From positions 1 to 35,777 of the IMG/VR virus record IMGVR_UViG_3300037119_005203: a DNA stretch of 35,777 nucleotides. One strand, 5' to 3'. The DNA comes from a virus. The translations under genes were made by a program, and so were the position numbers. The number at the start of each line of letters is the position of its first letter. The stretch's first letter is position 1. Shown one piece after another: positions 8,460 to 21,427 of this stretch. The notes beneath the pieces are model-generated. The model was given only the letters and a program-made list of their open reading frames with translations. It was not told the origin of the DNA and made no database searches.

Positions 8460-8851
8460 TCGATTAATTCCGACAATGTGGCGGCGGTCCGCAGATCAAT
8501 GAACGGATCGCCGCCAACGCCATGACACTGCACATAGCAGCGCATCCGCAACGGCGCCAGCGCGCGTGCCGCGCTCGCCAGCGGCTTCGGATTCGTTGAG
8601 CAATACCATCCAGCGATCACCACCAGCTCGGTAACGTTGCCGATGCACGTCACCCAAGCCGGCATCCTTTCGAGCGCGCTGCGGTCGAGCGCGTCGACGT
8701 CAATACACCAACGCAAGCGCGGACATTGATCCATGATCGCCAGCATCAGACCAGAGCCCGCGCAGATCAGCGCCGCACGCTCCCCTCGATCAAAATCCAC
8801 AGGCTCAATTTGGTAGCAACGCGAAATGAACCCGACGCTATCCTCGGTCAT
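8414..8851 (-). CDS. Unknown protein of the ABC-GNAT cassette, 145 residues
   Basis: The gene begins in an ATGA overlap with the ABC-ATPase/GNAT gene upstream and overlaps the ASCH gene tail to tail. The sequence alternates hydrophobic strands and helices like a small Rossmann-type alpha/beta domain: RAALICAGSGLMLAIMD, WCIDVDALDR, VTCIGNVTELVVIAGW. It has eight Cys residues, some in strand-like surroundings. I do not recognise the family. Its fixed position after a ParB-like and an ABC-GNAT gene suggests a shared pathway, possibly DNA modification or a nucleotide/amino-acid derivative. Confidence 0.75.
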   Translation of the reverse strand: MTEDSVGFISRCYQIEPVDFDRGERAALICAGSGLMLAIMDQCPRLRWCIDVDALDRSALERMPAWVTCIGNVTELVVIAGWYCSTNPKPLASAARALAPLRMRCYVQCHGVGGDPFIDLRTAATLSELIDQVNTSSCGGLKRPS

Positions 8852-9984
8852 GCCGCCACAGCAACCTCGCGGTTGAGCAGGGCGGCGGCGGTATCGCGAT
8901 CCATTCTCGGCCCGATATATTCGAAGCTGGCGGTGACACGGTTGGTGGCGTGCGCCATCTTCTGGCCCGCTGGATTGGTGCCGGTCGGATTGATCTTAGG
9001 CGCGCGCGTCATCCGCCAAGCCGGATCGCGTCGCGCGCCTGCGATCTCTGCCGGGTGACCGGTATTACGAAACGCGCGATAGCCGAGCCCCACCCACATT
9101 GAACCCAGCGATGTGATCATCTGGTTGCCGATGCCGACGCCCTGGAAGTCCGGCAGCACCACCGAGCGGTGGCCGCGAAACGCCTTGCTGCCCGGTAGCC
9201 GTCCAACGAACGGCAGGTAGGAATGAAACGCGACCGGGCGGCCGTCGATAAAGCCAACGAAGCAGATCGCCGAGCTGGCTAGCGCCGGCGTCAAATAGTG
9301 ATGGTGTGCGAAAAGCTGCCACGCCGTGTGATGCACCCTGGCAATTTCAAGCTGGATCGATGGTCGTCCCCGAAGTGACCTCCAAGCGAACGAATTGTCC
9401 GCAGGCGTGTAAACCCAGTCCGGATCTAGCCATTCGAGCACGTCATCATGGCACGTCACCGCGACGAACTTGCCGCCGCGACGCCGCACCGTTTTGGCAA
9501 CCGCCGCGCTGCCGATCTGGCCGACCGTTCGATCAACCACCGACGTGAATTCGTCGAATACGCAGAGCGCCGGCTTTTCGGCGAGCGCCCGCGCCAGCGT
9601 GGCGCGGAATTGCTCACCGTTCGACAGCACGTGGTGTGGCCGAAGCCATGCCGGCGGCGTCGAGAAGCCGACCGACGAGAGCAGCATGGTGATATCCTTG
9701 ATCGGCATACCTTTCGGAAAGCCGTCGACGATCGATCGGCCAGTAGGCCACTCAAAGCCGGTGGTATAGGCGTCGGGAAATAGCTCACGGGCAACCGTCG
9801 TCTTGCCGCAGCCCGAGGGGCCGTACACCAACCCGATATGCCAGTCCTTGGCGTCGAGCGGCAGGTTGACCGACCATTGCAGCTCGGCGCGCTGCGTCGG
9901 CGCAATGTCGAACAGGCCTTCGAGCTGCTGCACCCGGATGGTGCGTTCGATCGGCACGGTCCGCGTAATGATCTGATGGGTCAT
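8848..9984 (-). CDS. ABC-type ATPase fused to a GNAT acyltransferase domain (COG2401 type), 378 residues
   Basis: Residues about 30-200 are a soluble ABC ATPase: Walker A GPSGCGKT (55-62), signature LSNGEQ (120-125), Walker B CVFDE (141-145) and switch His H179. Residues about 210-330 match a GNAT fold, with the acyl-CoA loop pattern Q-G-V-G-I-G (281-286) after strand SVVLPDF and an HHHYLTP segment near 227-233. COG2401 is defined as an ABC-type ATPase fused to a predicted acetyltransferase. There are no membrane helices, so it is not a transporter. Phage Mu Mom, which modifies adenine in DNA, also belongs to the acyltransferase superfamily, so a role in modifying DNA or a small molecule is possible. 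It is coupled to the genes on both sides. Confidence 0.85.
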   Translation of the reverse strand: MTHQIITRTVPIERTIRVQQLEGLFDIAPTQRAELQWSVNLPLDAKDWHIGLVYGPSGCGKTTVARELFPDAYTTGFEWPTGRSIVDGFPKGMPIKDITMLLSSVGFSTPPAWLRPHHVLSNGEQFRATLARALAEKPALCVFDEFTSVVDRTVGQIGSAAVAKTVRRRGGKFVAVTCHDDVLEWLDPDWVYTPADNSFAWRSLRGRPSIQLEIARVHHTAWQLFAHHHYLTPALASSAICFVGFIDGRPVAFHSYLPFVGRLPGSKAFRGHRSVVLPDFQGVGIGNQMITSLGSMWVGLGYRAFRNTGHPAEIAGARRDPAWRMTRAPKINPTGTNPAGQKMAHATNRVTASFEYIGPRMDRDTAAALLNREVAVAA

Positions 9985-14452: not shown

Positions 14453-14716
14453 TCATTTTGGTACGTACTCAGGCGGCGCTAGGAAGTCGCCCCAATGCAG
14501 GTACTCATCCTCGTCGGCGTTGCCGCGTTCGAGCTGCGTCGTATCATCAAAGCAGCTATCGCAAAGCCATCGGCCATCCGGCAGCAAGCGTAGCTCGTCG
14601 CGATCGTAGTGCCCGCATTCCTCCGGGCAACCATCAGCGCAATCGCTGCAAACGTACATGATCCGCCCAGTCGAAATTTGCGAAGCTCCAGCGTGATCAG
14701 CTCGTGATTCGCTCAT
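14453..14716 (-). CDS. Zinc-ribbon-like phage protein, 87 residues
   Basis: The start at 14716 overlaps the helicase stop (ATGA); an internal ATG at MYVCSDC is an alternative. The Cys pattern is CSDC, CPEEC, then LCDSC after DGRW, enough for one or two zinc sites. The C-terminus is acidic (NADEDEYLHWGDFL). Its direct coupling to the helicase gene suggests it may assist it. Confidence 0.7.
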   Translation of the reverse strand: MSESRADHAGASQISTGRIMYVCSDCADGCPEECGHYDRDELRLLPDGRWLCDSCFDDTTQLERGNADEDEYLHWGDFLAPPEYVPK

Positions 14717-16203
14717 AACGCCCGCGCTTTCTTCGCATACTTGATCTGCCCGGCGCGGACCCATGCCATCACCTTCGGCGAAATGCTGTTGATCGGCTTG
14801 GCGTAGCGCTCGATGCCGTTCGGCCAGACCCCGAACTTCTCGCGGTACTTGTTCGCCGCCCAGCCCGGCTTGTAGCCGTGATAGCGGCCATAGGCCTGCA
14901 GCTCGGAGAGAAACTGCGCCTTATCGAGCGTCGACCACTCCCGGTTGGCCTTCTTCATCGTCCGCAGCATGTCGGCGCGGTCGATCTCGATCAGCACGCC
15001 GTCGTTTTCGAGGATGTTGCTCTGCAGCTTGTTGAGCGCACCGCAGTTCGGGCAGATCCGGTTCTTGTTCGGCGGGTGCAGCGCGCCGCACACCTTGCAT
15101 TCCACCGGCAGCCTGTCGCGCGGCACCGCCGCCGCTTTCGGCTTCGGCGTGCCGTCGTCCAGCTCGTCATGCATGATGTCGGTGACAAAGCCGAGCCGCT
15201 GCGTGGTGTCGCTGTGATCGAGGATCACCAGCCGCTGCTTGCCCGGCGCGGTGCGTAGGCCGCGGCCGATGATCTGCACATAGCGCATTTCGCTGCGTGT
15301 CGGCCGCGCCAAGATCAGGCAGCGCACATCCCAATCCACCCCCATCGTCAGGGTGTCGACGTTGACCACGACCTGATAGGTGCCGTTGTGGAACATCCGC
15401 TTGATGCTGCTGCGAACGTCCAGCGGCGTCTCGGCGTCCTGATAACCGCACTTGATGCCGGCGTATTCGAACCGCTCCTGCAGGGCCTTGGCGTGGGCGC
15501 AGTCGACCGCAAAGCACAGCGTCTGACCCTGGCCCCATTGCTTCTGATAGGTCTCGATGATATCGGCGCTCAGACTGCCGCGCTGCATCGCCTCCGATAA
15601 CTGATCCTGCTGATATTCGCCCGCCGTAATCTTGACGCCCTTGAGGTCCGGATGGCCGGTGGCGAACACCTTGAACGGCGACAGGTAGCCGTCGCCGATC
15701 AGCTCCGCCGTGGTGGTCACCGTCAGCAGGCTATGAAAATGCTGCCCCAGCCCCTTGGCCCACGGCGTCGCCGACAGCCCGATGAACAGCTTGTCGGCAA
15801 ACCGCGCGTCCGCCAGCCAATTCTTGTGCGCCTTGTACAGCACATGGCATTCGTCAAACATGATGATATCGGCGTCCGGAAAGCCGCGATTGGCTACCGT
15901 CTGAATCGAGCAAATCTGAATCGGCTTGACCCAATCGGTCATGATGTGGCGCTGCTGTATCACCCCGACATCTCGTAGCCCGTCGGCCGCGAACGCCTCC
16001 AGCGTCTGGTCAATCAGCGAGATCGCCGGCACCACGAACGCCAGCCGCTTGCGCTTGGCATGCGCACCGTTGCCGATCGTCGACGCCATCAGGGTCTTGC
16101 CAGCCCCGGTCGGTGCCTGCAGCACGATCCGCTTGACGCCGCCGCGAATGCTGTCGCGCAACGCGTTGATCGCTTCGGTCTGATAAGGGCGAAGCTCGCT
16201 CAT
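14713..16203 (-). CDS. SF2 DEAD/H-type DNA helicase, 496 residues
   Basis: Helicase motifs are in order: Q-like RPYQTEAI (5-12), motif I APTGAGKT (30-37), motif II DECH (117-120), motif III SAT (144-146), and motif VI QIIGRGLR (310-317). A zinc knuckle with two C-x2-C pairs (C369/C372 and C384/C387) lies after the core, followed by a basic helical tail ending KKARAL. This is the UvsW/RecG-like SSL2-type (ResIII) family seen in many phages, where it drives replication fork remodelling or origin unwinding. It is coupled to genes on both sides (16200-16388 and 14453-14716). Confidence 0.92.
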   Translation of the reverse strand: MSELRPYQTEAINALRDSIRGGVKRIVLQAPTGAGKTLMASTIGNGAHAKRKRLAFVVPAISLIDQTLEAFAADGLRDVGVIQQRHIMTDWVKPIQICSIQTVANRGFPDADIIMFDECHVLYKAHKNWLADARFADKLFIGLSATPWAKGLGQHFHSLLTVTTTAELIGDGYLSPFKVFATGHPDLKGVKITAGEYQQDQLSEAMQRGSLSADIIETYQKQWGQGQTLCFAVDCAHAKALQERFEYAGIKCGYQDAETPLDVRSSIKRMFHNGTYQVVVNVDTLTMGVDWDVRCLILARPTRSEMRYVQIIGRGLRTAPGKQRLVILDHSDTTQRLGFVTDIMHDELDDGTPKPKAAAVPRDRLPVECKVCGALHPPNKNRICPNCGALNKLQSNILENDGVLIEIDRADMLRTMKKANREWSTLDKAQFLSELQAYGRYHGYKPGWAANKYREKFGVWPNGIERYAKPINSISPKVMAWVRAGQIKYAKKARAL

Positions 16204-17101: not shown

Positions 17102-17346
17102 TGCTTGCCCTCCGGTTCACTATCGCGGCCTTCCCACCGCGCTACCAATTCCTTGAGCGCCACCAGCACGTCGCCGCGGACGCCGTTGCCGATGTAATTG
17201 ACACAGCCGGCCTCGCCGAAATTGTAGGTCAGCAGCGCAAAGCCGACGCGCTTCGGATGACCTCTGCCGTTGAAATATTCGTCCAGCAGCGCGGCCACAT
17301 CATTCATTTCCTGGCGCCATTCCGCCGCGATCGGATCATGGTTCAT
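17098..17346 (-). CDS. Small phage protein, 82 residues
   Basis: The sequence GRGHPKRVGFALLTYNFGEAGCVNYIGNG followed by VALKELVARWEG is typical of a small phage family with a conserved NYI motif and a closing ARWEG helix. The gene is ATGA-coupled on both sides, so it belongs to the same translated chain as 16766-17101 and 17343-17618. No biochemical role is known to me. Confidence 0.77.
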   Translation of the reverse strand: MNHDPIAAEWRQEMNDVAALLDEYFNGRGHPKRVGFALLTYNFGEAGCVNYIGNGVRGDVLVALKELVARWEGRDSEPEGKQ

Positions 17347-17618
17347 TGATCGCCCTCCTTTGCCTTGAAATACTCAGCCCTCACCCGCTGAAGCGCAATG
17401 ACGCCACGATCATCGGCAAGCTGATTACTTTCTGCATCGGTAAGCTTGCGCAGCGTCAGCTCATCGCCGAACGCCATCAAATTCCCGCAGTAAAAGCAGA
17501 TCGAAATATCACCGACCTTCGGTCGGATATCATCGGCTGTGGGATGTGTTGCCGCATCCAACACCTTACCGCAGCTCGGACAGGCTGATGGGATCATATC
17601 AGTAGCCATCGCCTTCAT
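17343..17618 (-). CDS. Zinc-ribbon protein, 91 residues
   Basis: I start it at ATG 17618 (MKAMATDM), which has GAGGGGTG a few bases upstream; the second in-frame ATG, four codons on, is also possible. CPSCGKVLDAAT near the N-terminus and CFYCGNLMAFGD about 35 residues later form a classical two-knuckle zinc ribbon. The rest is helical and basic. It may bind nucleic acid or a protein partner. Confidence 0.76.
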   Translation of the reverse strand: MKAMATDMIPSACPSCGKVLDAATHPTADDIRPKVGDISICFYCGNLMAFGDELTLRKLTDAESNQLADDRGVIALQRVRAEYFKAKEGDQ

Positions 17619-17620
17619 GG

Positions 17621-17860
17621 CTACACCCCTCGACGTTTGATCAGCCCGGACAAATTCATGTCCACCTGCCAGCCCTCCAGCTCCGTCAGCAGCAGCTTGC
17701 ATGTCTGCATATGATCACTGACCCGATCATCATCTTCACAAACCCAGTCCGCCTTTAGATTGTCACAGCACCGGATGTAGTCGTGTAATGCATCGATCAG
17801 GCCGACGGTGGCTTCCGGAAAATCCAGCGGCATCGCATCCAGCATTCGTTCAATGTTCAT
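17621..17860 (-). CDS. Small helical protein, first gene of the leftward operon, 79 residues
   Basis: The ATG at 17860 is preceded by AGGAG at good spacing, with a promoter-like sequence just upstream (17882-17910). The product is an acidic helical protein with CC in the middle (YIRCCDNLKAD) and a basic end (IKRRGV). It would be the first product of the 17.9-11.4 kb leftward transcript. No family is recognised. Confidence 0.72.
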   Translation of the reverse strand: MNIERMLDAMPLDFPEATVGLIDALHDYIRCCDNLKADWVCEDDDRVSDHMQTCKLLLTELEGWQVDMNLSGLIKRRGV

Positions 17861-17881
17861 GGCGTGCGCTCCTGATTGCCG

Positions 17882-17926
17882 ATCGTGGTTTCCGTGGTTT
17901 CAAATGTCAAGCGTTGCTTATCATTG
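17882..17926 (-). promoter_or_regulatory. Leftward promoter with adjoining operator
   Basis: On the minus strand TTGACA (17910-17905), 17 bases, then CACGAT (17887-17882) make a credible sigma-70-type promoter with a perfect -35 and a weak -10. Directly upstream lies TTGCTTATCATTG (17914-17926), containing the 9-mer GCTTATCAT shared with other control sites. This would drive the long leftward operon. Confidence 0.5.
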
Positions 17927-17979
17927 TTCCGCGTCAATTAAGGTTCCCCATGTTCTCCCCTCTCTCAACACTACTACTG

Positions 17980-18496
17980 TTAAGTAAGGGAAAAGATTCT
18001 TGCTTCCTTACTTCACCTTGGAGAGCGTCCTTGTGGATAGAGTCCACCTAAGCGCGCTGACGAGACAGCGACGCTGCGGCGATCCGGGAAGCGAGACAGA
18101 AGTAGGGTTAGTTTTGTCCCATAGAACAAACCGTGTCCCTACCGCTCCTGCGGATAGGCGACGCCCTAGCCAAGGTGGCGTCATCCCGGCCCGATCTTTT
18201 TCGCACCTTGGTGCGGCTGCTGGGGGAATCGAGCTGCGCCCTCCCCCGTGCCCTGTGCAGCATCCCAACCCACCAGCTCAGCTGGCCCTTGTGGGCAGTG
18301 CAAACACGGGCAAAGGGGGTCCGGTGGCCGATGGCCAATGCCCGTCACCGATGCCTTTGGAACTTTTACTTGCGGGGAGGAGCTTGCGAGGATACTGTGA
18401 GGTTGTTACTTGGTACCCCACGTTCCTTTGCCATTCCCGCGAAGTTTGGCATCGGTCTTTCGGCCCGCTCCGCGATCAACGGGGCGGGCCATTTTT
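17980..18496 (+). ncRNA. Candidate structured RNA (unproven)
   Basis: About 500 bases lack a convincing gene but are dense in inverted repeats on the plus strand. AAGTAAGG pairs with CCTTACTT (17982-17989, 18006-18013). GTGGA/TCCAC is a hairpin at 18033-18047. TAGGG and CCCTA enclose GTTTTGT and ACAAAC in the 18.10-18.14 kb area. GACGCC pairs with GGCGTC near 18.16-18.18 kb, CGCAC with GTGCG at 18202-18215, and GGGGG with CCCCC near 18.22-18.25 kb. CCAGCTCAGCTGG is a palindrome at 18273-18285. The stretch ends in an intrinsic terminator, as a stand-alone RNA gene would. No known RNA class matched by eye (not RNase P RNA or tmRNA), and no clear promoter was seen. A weak protein ORF (18133-18570) runs through the terminator and is the main alternative. 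Confidence 0.35.
18462..18496 (+). terminator. Intrinsic terminator ending the 18.0-18.5 kb region
   Basis: GGCCCGCTCC pairs with GGGGCGGGCC (one or two wobbles) around GCGATCAAC and is followed by ATTTTT. It reads rightward, although every annotated gene in the surrounding area is on the minus strand. Confidence 0.75.
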
Positions 18497-18680
18497 CGAA
18501 AGGTGCTTCGAAGCCGGCACTTTGCGCCCCTCAGCCGGTTTGTCTAGCCGGTTTGTTAAACATTTTATGACGGCCCAGCCACATATCTAGTGGGATACCA
18601 GCCGCTTAACCCCCAGCGCTTGTATTGTACCAACGGACAAGGGCGCGGCCGCCGCCCCCGTCGGCGCAGCACGCAAAGGG

Positions 18681-18730
18681 ATGCTTATCATTTCGCGGCA
18701 ATGTCAGGATGGTAAGGTTTGCTTATCGAT
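18681..18730. promoter_or_regulatory. Two operator-like copies
   Basis: ATGCTTATCATTT (18681-18693) and TTTGCTTATCGAT (18718-18730) share TGCTTATC. The second lies over the last codons of the RuvC-like gene and is embedded in GGTAAGGTTTGCTTATCG, which closely resembles AAGGTTTGCTTAACCG at 22651-22666. Pairs of such sites are usual for phage repressors. The rest of 18497-18680 has no recognisable feature. Confidence 0.45.
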
Positions 18731-19249
18731 CAGCCGACGCTTCGGCCGAAACAGCGGCGAATGGGTGTGCGCCAGATCCGGCCGCGCCGTGCAAACCGCG
18801 TAGCTCCACAGCGCGCAGGCGTCGGCCTCGTCGTCATTGGTCACCCGCCAGCCCAGCCCCTCGCAGCGCTCGCGCGTCTTTGCCTTGGCCAGATCGCGTT
18901 TCAAATTGGCGCCGATAAAGTGCACCCGGACCGCGGCGACGCGCACCTCGTACAGCTCGACCACGCCGTGGCATAGCTCGTCGACGTGCTCGCAGCAGCC
19001 GATCAAAAACCGAATCGCGTCGGTGTTGGTGCGCCCCATCATCAGCATCGGCAGCGCGGCGCTCTCATAGATCACGCGGGCGCACTGATCGAGCTGCGGC
19101 GCCAGCCACGCCCGCAGCTCGCGATAGCGCTGCGGCTTGTCGCCGTGCAGCAGAAAGCGACCGAACGTCGGCGTCTCGCCGGGCCGGCCGAACGCCCAGC
19201 CGGTGCGGGTGGCGAGGTCGAGCGCCAGGATGTTACCGCTGAACGTCAT
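18704..19249 (-). CDS. RuvC-like Holliday junction resolvase, 181 residues
   Basis: The RNase H-like fold is shown by ILALDLATRTGWAFG (D11), the second acidic strand VIYESAALP (E62), and DDEADACALW near the C-terminus (D140, D143). These four acidic residues bind the two metal ions of RuvC-family nucleases. The length is right for phage RuvC. It would cut Holliday junctions and branched DNA during replication and before packaging, and it complements the RecE/RecT pair further right. It overlaps the end of the upstream gene by 17 bases. Confidence 0.87.
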   Translation of the reverse strand: MTFSGNILALDLATRTGWAFGRPGETPTFGRFLLHGDKPQRYRELRAWLAPQLDQCARVIYESAALPMLMMGRTNTDAIRFLIGCCEHVDELCHGVVELYEVRVAAVRVHFIGANLKRDLAKAKTRERCEGLGWRVTNDDEADACALWSYAVCTARPDLAHTHSPLFRPKRRLIDKQTLPS

Positions 19250-19819: not shown

Positions 19820-20471
19820 TGCGCTTGGCTCCCTCCTCGCGATGGGCGCGGCAGTAGAACCGGCCGGTGCCGGCGCGGAGGTTGACGCCGAAACCGAACG
19901 GGCCGGGCGCATGGCATATCTCACAATAGCTGTCACCCGGCGGCATCTCACATTGATAGCGCCGAATCCAGACTCCACTTTCCATGATGTCGTCGATCGG
20001 CACCACGCGACAACGCGAGCGGTTGATCTGATCGGTGACCGTCGGTGCGAAGCGTTCCACGCGCGGCCAGAACCATTGCTTCAATGGCTGCATCTCGATC
20101 AGATAGCAGACCAAAGCGTTTTTGCGCCAGGACGTGGCAAAGCCATACAGTAGATAGTCGGCATTGCTGGTGTCCATCCAGCCGCTTTTCTCATGACCCT
20201 CGACCGTGCAGCTGTCCGTTTCCAGCGCCAGCGCGCTGTGGCCGCACAGCCGCGGCACCCATGGTTTGAGCGTGGTCTTGTCCACTGGCCAGCGCACGAT
20301 CTTTTCCTCGACCAACCTGTCGCCTTCGCGCGCGTGCACCACGGTATCGGCGCCGCGCGGGTCGGTGTGATGGAGGAATTCATAGTGGCCGGCGTAGTAG
20401 TGCTCGTAAAAGTACGGCGCCAGCAAACGGTCACGCATCTCGCGCTGGAAAGCGTCATCGCGTCGGAACAT
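19797..20471 (-). CDS. PD-(D/E)XK nuclease-like protein with zinc knuckle, 224 residues
   Basis: The start at 20471 overlaps the methyltransferase stop (TAATG). Residues D42, E55 and K57 (in ADTVVHAREGDRLVEEK) can form a PD-(D/E)XK site, and the later ALETDS and EKSGWMDTSNADYLLYGF segments are found in phage proteins of that superfamily. The C-terminus carries C183/C186 and C207/H210, a zinc site. Lying directly after a DNA methyltransferase, it may be a nuclease partner, as in a restriction-modification or DNA-protection pair, but activity is inferred from pattern only. Confidence 0.65.
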   Translation of the reverse strand: MFRRDDAFQREMRDRLLAPYFYEHYYAGHYEFLHHTDPRGADTVVHAREGDRLVEEKIVRWPVDKTTLKPWVPRLCGHSALALETDSCTVEGHEKSGWMDTSNADYLLYGFATSWRKNALVCYLIEMQPLKQWFWPRVERFAPTVTDQINRSRCRVVPIDDIMESGVWIRRYQCEMPPGDSYCEICHAPGPFGFGVNLRAGTGRFYCRAHREEGAKRNGATIRR

Positions 20472-21427
20472 TATTCGGCTGCCTCCTGCAATTCGAACAG
20501 GTCGGTGAAATCCTCGCGCGGCGTGCGCTGGTTGGCCTCGCCATAGGGCGGATACGATGCCGCACGGACGATGTCGTAGAATTTCTCCGGCTTCTCCGAG
20601 TGCTCCCCACGCGGTGCCTCGAAGTGTGTCGGAATGCTCGACGCCGCCGGCCGCGTCGTGGTGTCGCCGAAGGTGGCGAAGAGACATTGCTCGGTCGAAT
20701 TGCGGAAGTAGGAACCGAGACCGAACGGCGGCGGCTTGATCCACGTCAGAATGGTACGATGCTGGAAGCCCCAGTGTTCGACCAGCTTGTGCGCCTCATA
20801 GCTGAAATTGTTGGTGGTCCAGCAATACAAATGGCAGCCCTCTTCCTCGTCGACCCATGCCCGAACATCCAGTTCGCGCAGGCTCTCGATCGTCTGCATC
20901 GCATAGCCCGGCTTGGCGCGGGCCGCGATCGACAGCCACTCATAGTCCCAGGCCGGGTCGATGACGATCGTGTTAAATTTTCCCTCGCGCGGCCCGAGTT
21001 CCAAGATGCGTTCCTCATCCGCGCCGACGCGTTCCAGGCGTAATATCTTCGATACATCATTGCGTTGCAGGCTCGGGCAGATCCTACCGTCCTTCATCAT
21101 CCGCTTGAAGGTGATCTCATTGAGGCGTGTCATCTTATCGATGGTGGTATAGTCCGGCGGCAGCTGCTTCAAAACGTGGGCATTGCCCACGTTTTCGATC
21201 CATGTCGCAATCCGCATGAAGGCGCGCACGGTGTTCGGGTTGAATTTCAGATCGCGCTCCAGCAGCATTTGCCATTGCCCATGTGCGGCCAGATCAACCT
21301 TGGCTTGATGTAGCTCGCGGCCCAATTGAATGAAGCCCTGCACCGCGCTCTCGCGGATCTCATCCCATTGTTCATTCAGCCGCTTGGCCCATTCGCGCCG
21401 CGTCAGCGTCAATTGCTTGCCCGTCAT
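20471..21427 (-). CDS. MT-A70 family adenine DNA methyltransferase with helical N-domain, 318 residues
   Basis: Residues 1-110 are helical with GRELHQAK and HGQWQMLL, as in DUF3102-type DNA-binding regions. Residues 150-300 are MT-A70-like: the motif IV strand TIVIDPAW (DPAW 157-160), then YCWTTNNFSYEAHKLVEHWGF, STEQCLFATFG and RGEHSEKPEKFYDIV. The usual catalytic tetrapeptide is DPPW; here it is DPAW, and the final FxR-type motif is also altered. Family members methylate adenine N6. An orphan methyltransferase protecting phage DNA from host enzymes is the simplest role; an altered or inactive enzyme is the alternative. It is coupled to its neighbours on both sides. Confidence 0.85.
   Translation of the reverse strand: MTGKQLTLTRREWAKRLNEQWDEIRESAVQGFIQLGRELHQAKVDLAAHGQWQMLLERDLKFNPNTVRAFMRIATWIENVGNAHVLKQLPPDYTTIDKMTRLNEITFKRMMKDGRICPSLQRNDVSKILRLERVGADEERILELGPREGKFNTIVIDPAWDYEWLSIAARAKPGYAMQTIESLRELDVRAWVDEEEGCHLYCWTTNNFSYEAHKLVEHWGFQHRTILTWIKPPPFGLGSYFRNSTEQCLFATFGDTTTRPAASSIPTHFEAPRGEHSEKPEKFYDIVRAASYPPYGEANQRTPREDFTDLFELQEAAE

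Follow-up and report, generated by a model that had tools for sequence, protein, structure and literature searches.

A candidate non-coding RNA locus beside ruvC in a phage genome, with counterparts in related phages that suggest a new small-RNA family

The window analyzed here is an IMG/VR virus record, covered over its whole length of 35,777 bases. It contains a non-coding gap of 843 nt (positions 17861–18703, assigned to neither strand), which separates recombination from replication genes and is bounded by ORF 17621–17860 on the minus strand, the first gene of a leftward operon, and by the stop codon at 18704 of a ruvC-like gene. This right-hand neighbor (18704–19249, minus strand) encodes a RuvC-like Holliday junction resolvase (PHROG 159, E = 4.5e-9) and is our synteny anchor. 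All genes around the gap, small ORFs included, are oriented leftward, as are those for a helicase (14713–16203) and an MT-A70 methyltransferase (20471–21427). The gap was delimited from the ORF list, coding scores, family searches without a match and the same slot in relatives. Codon-usage scores were negative for every candidate ORF within it (-0.10 for 18133–18570, -0.24 for 18000–18590, and -0.18 and -0.53 for the minus-strand candidates), and ranged from +0.05 to +0.57 in 19/19 window ORFs scored as genes. Pfam and PHROG searches with the gap ORFs gave no match. These results agree with a first-pass annotation that had seen no convincing gene here, and speak against ORF 18133–18570, which it had listed as a weak protein ORF. 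The tail proteins encoded in the window are similar to those of Rhizobium, Sinorhizobium and Paracoccus phages, and the host is therefore likely to be alphaproteobacterial. No tRNA genes were found in the window.

Several other features were observed in and around the gap. It is flanked by an imperfect direct repeat, AAGCGTTGCTTATCATT (17909–17925) and AAGGGATGCTTATCATT (18676–18692), with 88% identity and 767 bases apart. Just upstream of the first leftward gene, the minus strand carries a perfect TTGACA at 17905–17910, followed 17 nt on by a weak -10 (CACGAT), a possible promoter of the leftward operon. Elsewhere in the window, a 378-aa ORF (8848–9984, minus strand) matches phrog_11143 (E = 8e-101, PHROG category morons) and has further weak matches labeled acetyltransferase and ABC transporter.

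The gap contains an intrinsic terminator that reads rightward (18462–18496, plus strand), against the direction of all its neighbors, as had been noted before. It consists of a GC-rich stem-loop (18462–18490; 11 pairs, 10 of them GC) followed by ATTTTT and lies 208 nt from the ruvC stop codon; the scan definition was lax, with 1.7 sites per 1.5 kb expected by chance. Directly past it, at 18533–18556, we observed a tandem direct repeat of AGCCGGTTTGT, in two exact copies 13 bases apart. Several inverted repeats are indeed present in the interval, and its plus strand (17980–18500) folds at -221.7 kcal/mol (z = -2.78), with 2/100 shuffles equally good. The minus strand reaches z = -4.23, so the structure is above chance without being strand-specific, and the fold alone is no proof of a plus-strand RNA. 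The last 83 nt at the 3' side have a plus-strand z of -3.0. As in the earlier annotation, no plus-strand promoter was recognized in the interval.

Using ruvC as the anchor for finding relatives, we found that related phages carry, downstream of ruvC and on the opposite strand, a non-coding element with a terminator at its end, in the orientation seen in the window. Further members were retrieved with a pattern from the 5' part of the element, and a covariance model of its 3' part (R2, see below) found the element of L016, which adjoins a primase gene 2 kb from ruvC. In total, 17 distinct elements were handled, the window included and near-identical copies uncounted, and at least 16 related phages carry the element. 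In 13 members, including the window, ruvC lies on the right with its stop codon at 90–850 nt from the element; in the others the element lies elsewhere. To the left, all members leave 0–110 nt between the element and the first leftward gene, which is a primase in L003, L014 and L016, an RNase H in L026, and codes for small proteins in the rest. Each contig holds one real copy, and none is present in the unrelated phage L008, where an 18-mer pattern match fell in a coding region and was rejected as chance. In L022 and L029, a small ORF (MT..NHSLDRRREE...), presumably phasin-like, separates the element from ruvC and shares the orientation of the RNA, and therefore the terminator could be an attenuator before a gene in these two phages.

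The core of the element in relatives is a predicted RNA gene of ~75–85 nt, comprising a hairpin (hairpin B, AUCC..CCUUUG....CAAAGG..UCGGAU) and then the terminator. R2 was built from ten members and recovers members outside the training set at E-values of 3e-7 to 0.04 (L027, 3e-7; L011, 1e-6; L029, 1e-4; L016, 1e-4; L019, 3e-4). Both sides of a pair had changed in 59 cells, vs 25 in shuffles, and these counts, which drop once the partners are slid, are biased to the model structure by an alignment fitted to it. The covariation value was 0.374 compared to 0.186 in shuffles, and 0/500 shuffles reached either this value or the number of cells altered on both sides. The 3' segments have a mean plus-strand fold z of -4.9, and the plus strand is favored over the minus strand, relative to shuffles, in 15/17 segments including that of the window. 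Hairpin B and the terminator contain G-U pairs and no A-C, counted on helix arms chosen by hand. Based on the covariation, the plus-favored fold and the presence of G-U without A-C, the 3' part in relatives is predicted to be a plus-strand RNA.

Upstream of this RNA, 16 members (the window and L003 not among them) share a block CGGAAC...TTGA...GGGG(C)TTGATG, followed by a TA-initial hexamer in an A/T-rich patch. The TA is found at a spacing of 16–18 from TTGA in 13/16, against a background of 0–6 away from that spacing, and this block, TTGATG-N17-TA (or N16/18), is a predicted sigma70-type promoter that reads rightward. An inverted repeat occupies a constant place inside it, from just after the -35 to about +1; its arms begin 2–7 and finish 27–33 bases after the -35 in most members. 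The sequence of this palindrome is free to vary, with 15 different palindromes in 16 phages, and the longest arms average 5.25, compared to 3.64 in shuffles (combined p = 3e-5). The arms are almost all Watson-Crick (2–3 G-U in 90 pairs), G-U being rarer than in hairpin B and the terminator (Fisher p = 0.008, with hand-chosen arms). No convincing second operator copies of the palindrome were found in the loci examined, which argues against a repressor with multiple operators and is still compatible with a single site.

A further domain, 180–390 nt long, lies upstream of the promoter and contains covarying inverted repeats without a strand signature. The L018-type subgroup shares 170 conserved nt, in which nine pairs covary (0/500 shuffles); the sequences of this domain differ in members outside that subgroup. 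A covariance model of the domain (R1) finds L029 (E = 6e-12) and L020 (E = 6e-8), both outside training. A pseudoknot helix of the L018-type domain, CCACUUU/AAAGUGG, was dropped as evidence, as its pairs never vary. On the plus strand, the upstream helices hold 3 G-U vs 7 A-C, and over 17 members the fold averages z = -1.2 on the plus and -1.5 on the minus strand (mean strand difference z = +0.26). Since neither the G-U/A-C counts nor the folds show a strand preference, and stability is low, the domain is possibly a DNA element, a minus-strand leader or the 5' part of a longer plus-strand RNA. In L019 and L026, where an RNase H gene is adjacent, it contains long inverted repeats of purines and pyrimidines (CTTTCTTCTTTCTTTACTTTC ... 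GAAGTAAGTAAGAAAGAAAG).

The window copy shares the slot of the family, flanked by the ruvC 3' end on one side and by the beginning of the leftward operon on the other, and has a rightward terminator at 90–850 nt from the ruvC stop codon. Alignment to the other members reached chance level only, nhmmer with the family HMM did not match the copy, and R2 with filters off gave no match at 18410–18500 on the plus strand. At the position of hairpin B, the window has a weak hairpin, TGCCA/TGGCA (18429–18451, plus strand), seen in the fold of the 3' segment and as inverted repeat I13, and unmatched by R2. A tentative counterpart of the promoter block (18359–18411, plus strand) was aligned by eye and includes direct repeat D6; it carries no statistical support, and the promoter matrix scored 3.9 bits, below the shuffled maxima (L003 is borderline, at 20/300 shuffles). 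Its parts are GGAAC (18359–18363), TTGCGA-N16-TTACTT and CTTGCG; the family-like spacing of GGAAC, CTTGCG and TTACTT as judged by eye, and a direct repeat CTTGCGGGGA (18369)/CTTGCGAGGA (18383) that is reminiscent of spaced TTGA repeats in the family, are not evidence. Across this putative promoter, CCGATGCC (18348–18355) can pair perfectly over 8 bp with GGCATCGG (18448–18455), in competition with the hairpin at 18429–18451; such a pairing would argue for a longer RNA in the window. The counterpart of the upstream domain (17973–18358, assigned to neither strand) has inverted repeats, for example GTTAAGTAAGG (17979–17989)/CCTTACTTCAC (18006–18016), and folds at z = -2.5 (plus) and -1.8 (minus). 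By its position and terminator, we somewhat favor counting the window copy as a family member, and it is then probably a very divergent one. The only close relative found for this phage is a contig 99.99% identical to it; searches with ORF 17343–17702 and the helicase yielded none closer besides.

In our preferred reading, to which we assign a probability of about 0.5, the gap is a locus for a non-coding RNA, and the elements at the corresponding position in related phages constitute a new small-RNA family. The sequences show a position and orientation that are conserved, hairpins that covary, the spacing of the promoter and a single copy per phage; we infer that the RNA would be produced, that the divergent copy of the window may work alike, and what the function would be. 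In relatives, a sigma70-type promoter would fire rightward, toward the ruvC 3' end and away from where the leftward replication operon begins with primase, RNase H or small early genes, yielding an RNA of ~75–85 nt with one hairpin and a terminator hairpin. By analogy with lambda pO/OOP, the unit may tune the early replication region. The likeliest agent would be transcription from the promoter against the operon, beside a stretch of DNA that is structured and possibly origin-like; the RNA itself, acting for instance in trans, would be a second candidate. Because the RNA would stop before ruvC, it is unlikely to act on this gene in antisense, except where transcription runs past the terminator. 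There is a slim chance that the whole constitutes a new replication-control unit, in which a DNA-hairpin promoter (-35 to +1) drives a two-hairpin RNA beside a covarying, strand-neutral origin folded as DNA, with DNA secondary structure switching transcription during replication; if true, this would be a new class of such units in phages. The sequence-free palindrome in the promoter raises a testable question on DNA hairpins in promoters.

The first-pass annotation had proposed a new structured RNA of about 500 bases with its own terminator. The notion of an RNA locus with a terminator is supported by the syntenic elements in relatives; a single RNA of 500 nt has only partial support from the folds, which are modestly better than shuffles on the plus strand (z = -2.8) and more so on the minus strand (z = -4.2), with no strand-specific fold in the upstream part. 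A single RNA of 400–500 nt, reaching from about 17980 to 18496 and having the promoter-like block of the relatives as an internal hairpin, is in our view unlikely: the upstream domain lacks a strand preference and a plus-strand G-U signature and is weakly stable, no promoter was seen upstream of it, and the position of the TA hexamer and its A/T-richness fit a promoter. In its favor are the conservation and covarying pairs of the domain in one subgroup, the R1 matches to L029 and L020, and the possible CCGATGCC/GGCATCGG pairing that spans the supposed promoter of the window. Quite unlikely is a regulatory or replication DNA element, in which the upstream domain and the palindrome act as DNA (as origin, protein-binding site or extruded hairpins); the short transcript would then be a by-product or would activate replication through transcription. 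Inverted repeats that vary with almost only Watson-Crick pairs, the missing upstream strand signature and the location directly before primase or RNase H genes agree with such an element, whereas no iteron array and no clear GC-skew switch at the gap were seen in the window, and the plus-strand signature of the 3' RNA would be left unexplained.

That a distance of 0–110 nt separates the upstream domain from the first leftward gene in every member, that three helices have A-C on the plus strand (G-U on the minus strand), and that the minus strand of the window folds so well could also indicate that the replication genes have a 5' UTR or attenuator here on the minus strand. This is improbable, as G-U changes arose independently three times on the plus strand of helix P3, the fold has no net strand preference, and the plus-strand terminator and hairpin B would go unexplained. 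Against the preferred reading, the window may have its terminator simply to stop antisense transcription. A plain intergenic gap with a terminator that keeps rightward transcription out of the leftward genes is highly improbable: by phage standards a gap of 843 nt is long, many relatives have a conserved RNA gene in this slot and orientation, and the 3' segment folds at z = -3.0, even if the window has no detectable homology to the family and lax terminator matches are common.

A search of the window and relatives against Rfam (4227 families), at gathering and lax thresholds, gave nothing real, and BLAST searches with the region found no match among phages or plasmids. The L031 and L014 elements were not found in isolate phages, and R2 had no match over 385 alphaproteobacterial genomes, a weak negative given the strict filters. 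We consider the family real and new, absent from Rfam, isolate phages and these 385 genomes; it represents an undescribed small RNA that many soil-type phages carry at one shared site of the replication module. What is gained for the window itself is modest, because its copy is too divergent to align.

The suggestion of a ROOL- or GOLLD-type RNA is not supported: there is no Rfam match and no tRNA in the window, near which such genes lie, and the promoter-bearing RNA-like part in relatives is only ~75–85 nt at the 3' end. Like these RNAs the family is phage-encoded and non-coding, and GOLLD also has a conserved 3' part and a less conserved 5' part (PMC12286853); it differs in being much shorter and in an upstream domain without an RNA strand signature. 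Candidate structured RNAs from metagenomes (Weinberg/Breaker type motifs; e.g., PMC2864571) likewise come from comparative analysis of intergenic regions. The family differs from the known motifs of this type in not being among the Rfam families searched.

The family is of a known kind, that of small phage RNAs equipped with a promoter and a terminator of their own. Lambda OOP RNA is 77 nt and acts on its target mRNA in an RNase III-dependent manner. By its sequence layout in relatives, the family resembles it: a short RNA would be transcribed from its own promoter to its own terminator within the replication region, against the replication genes, starting just before a replication gene and running toward the upstream gene. 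In lambda, where the terminator is tO, pO yields a short RNA antisense to cII and itself affects replication from ori-lambda (PMC3985674). OOP overlaps the cII 3' end, whereas the family terminator stays 90–850 nt short of the ruvC stop codon, with no overlap, in members with ruvC on the right. Also unlike OOP, the family has a promoter palindrome and a structured upstream domain; no sequence relation was seen. If such an OOP-like unit arose independently, this would point to opposing transcription next to replication genes as a general strategy of phages.
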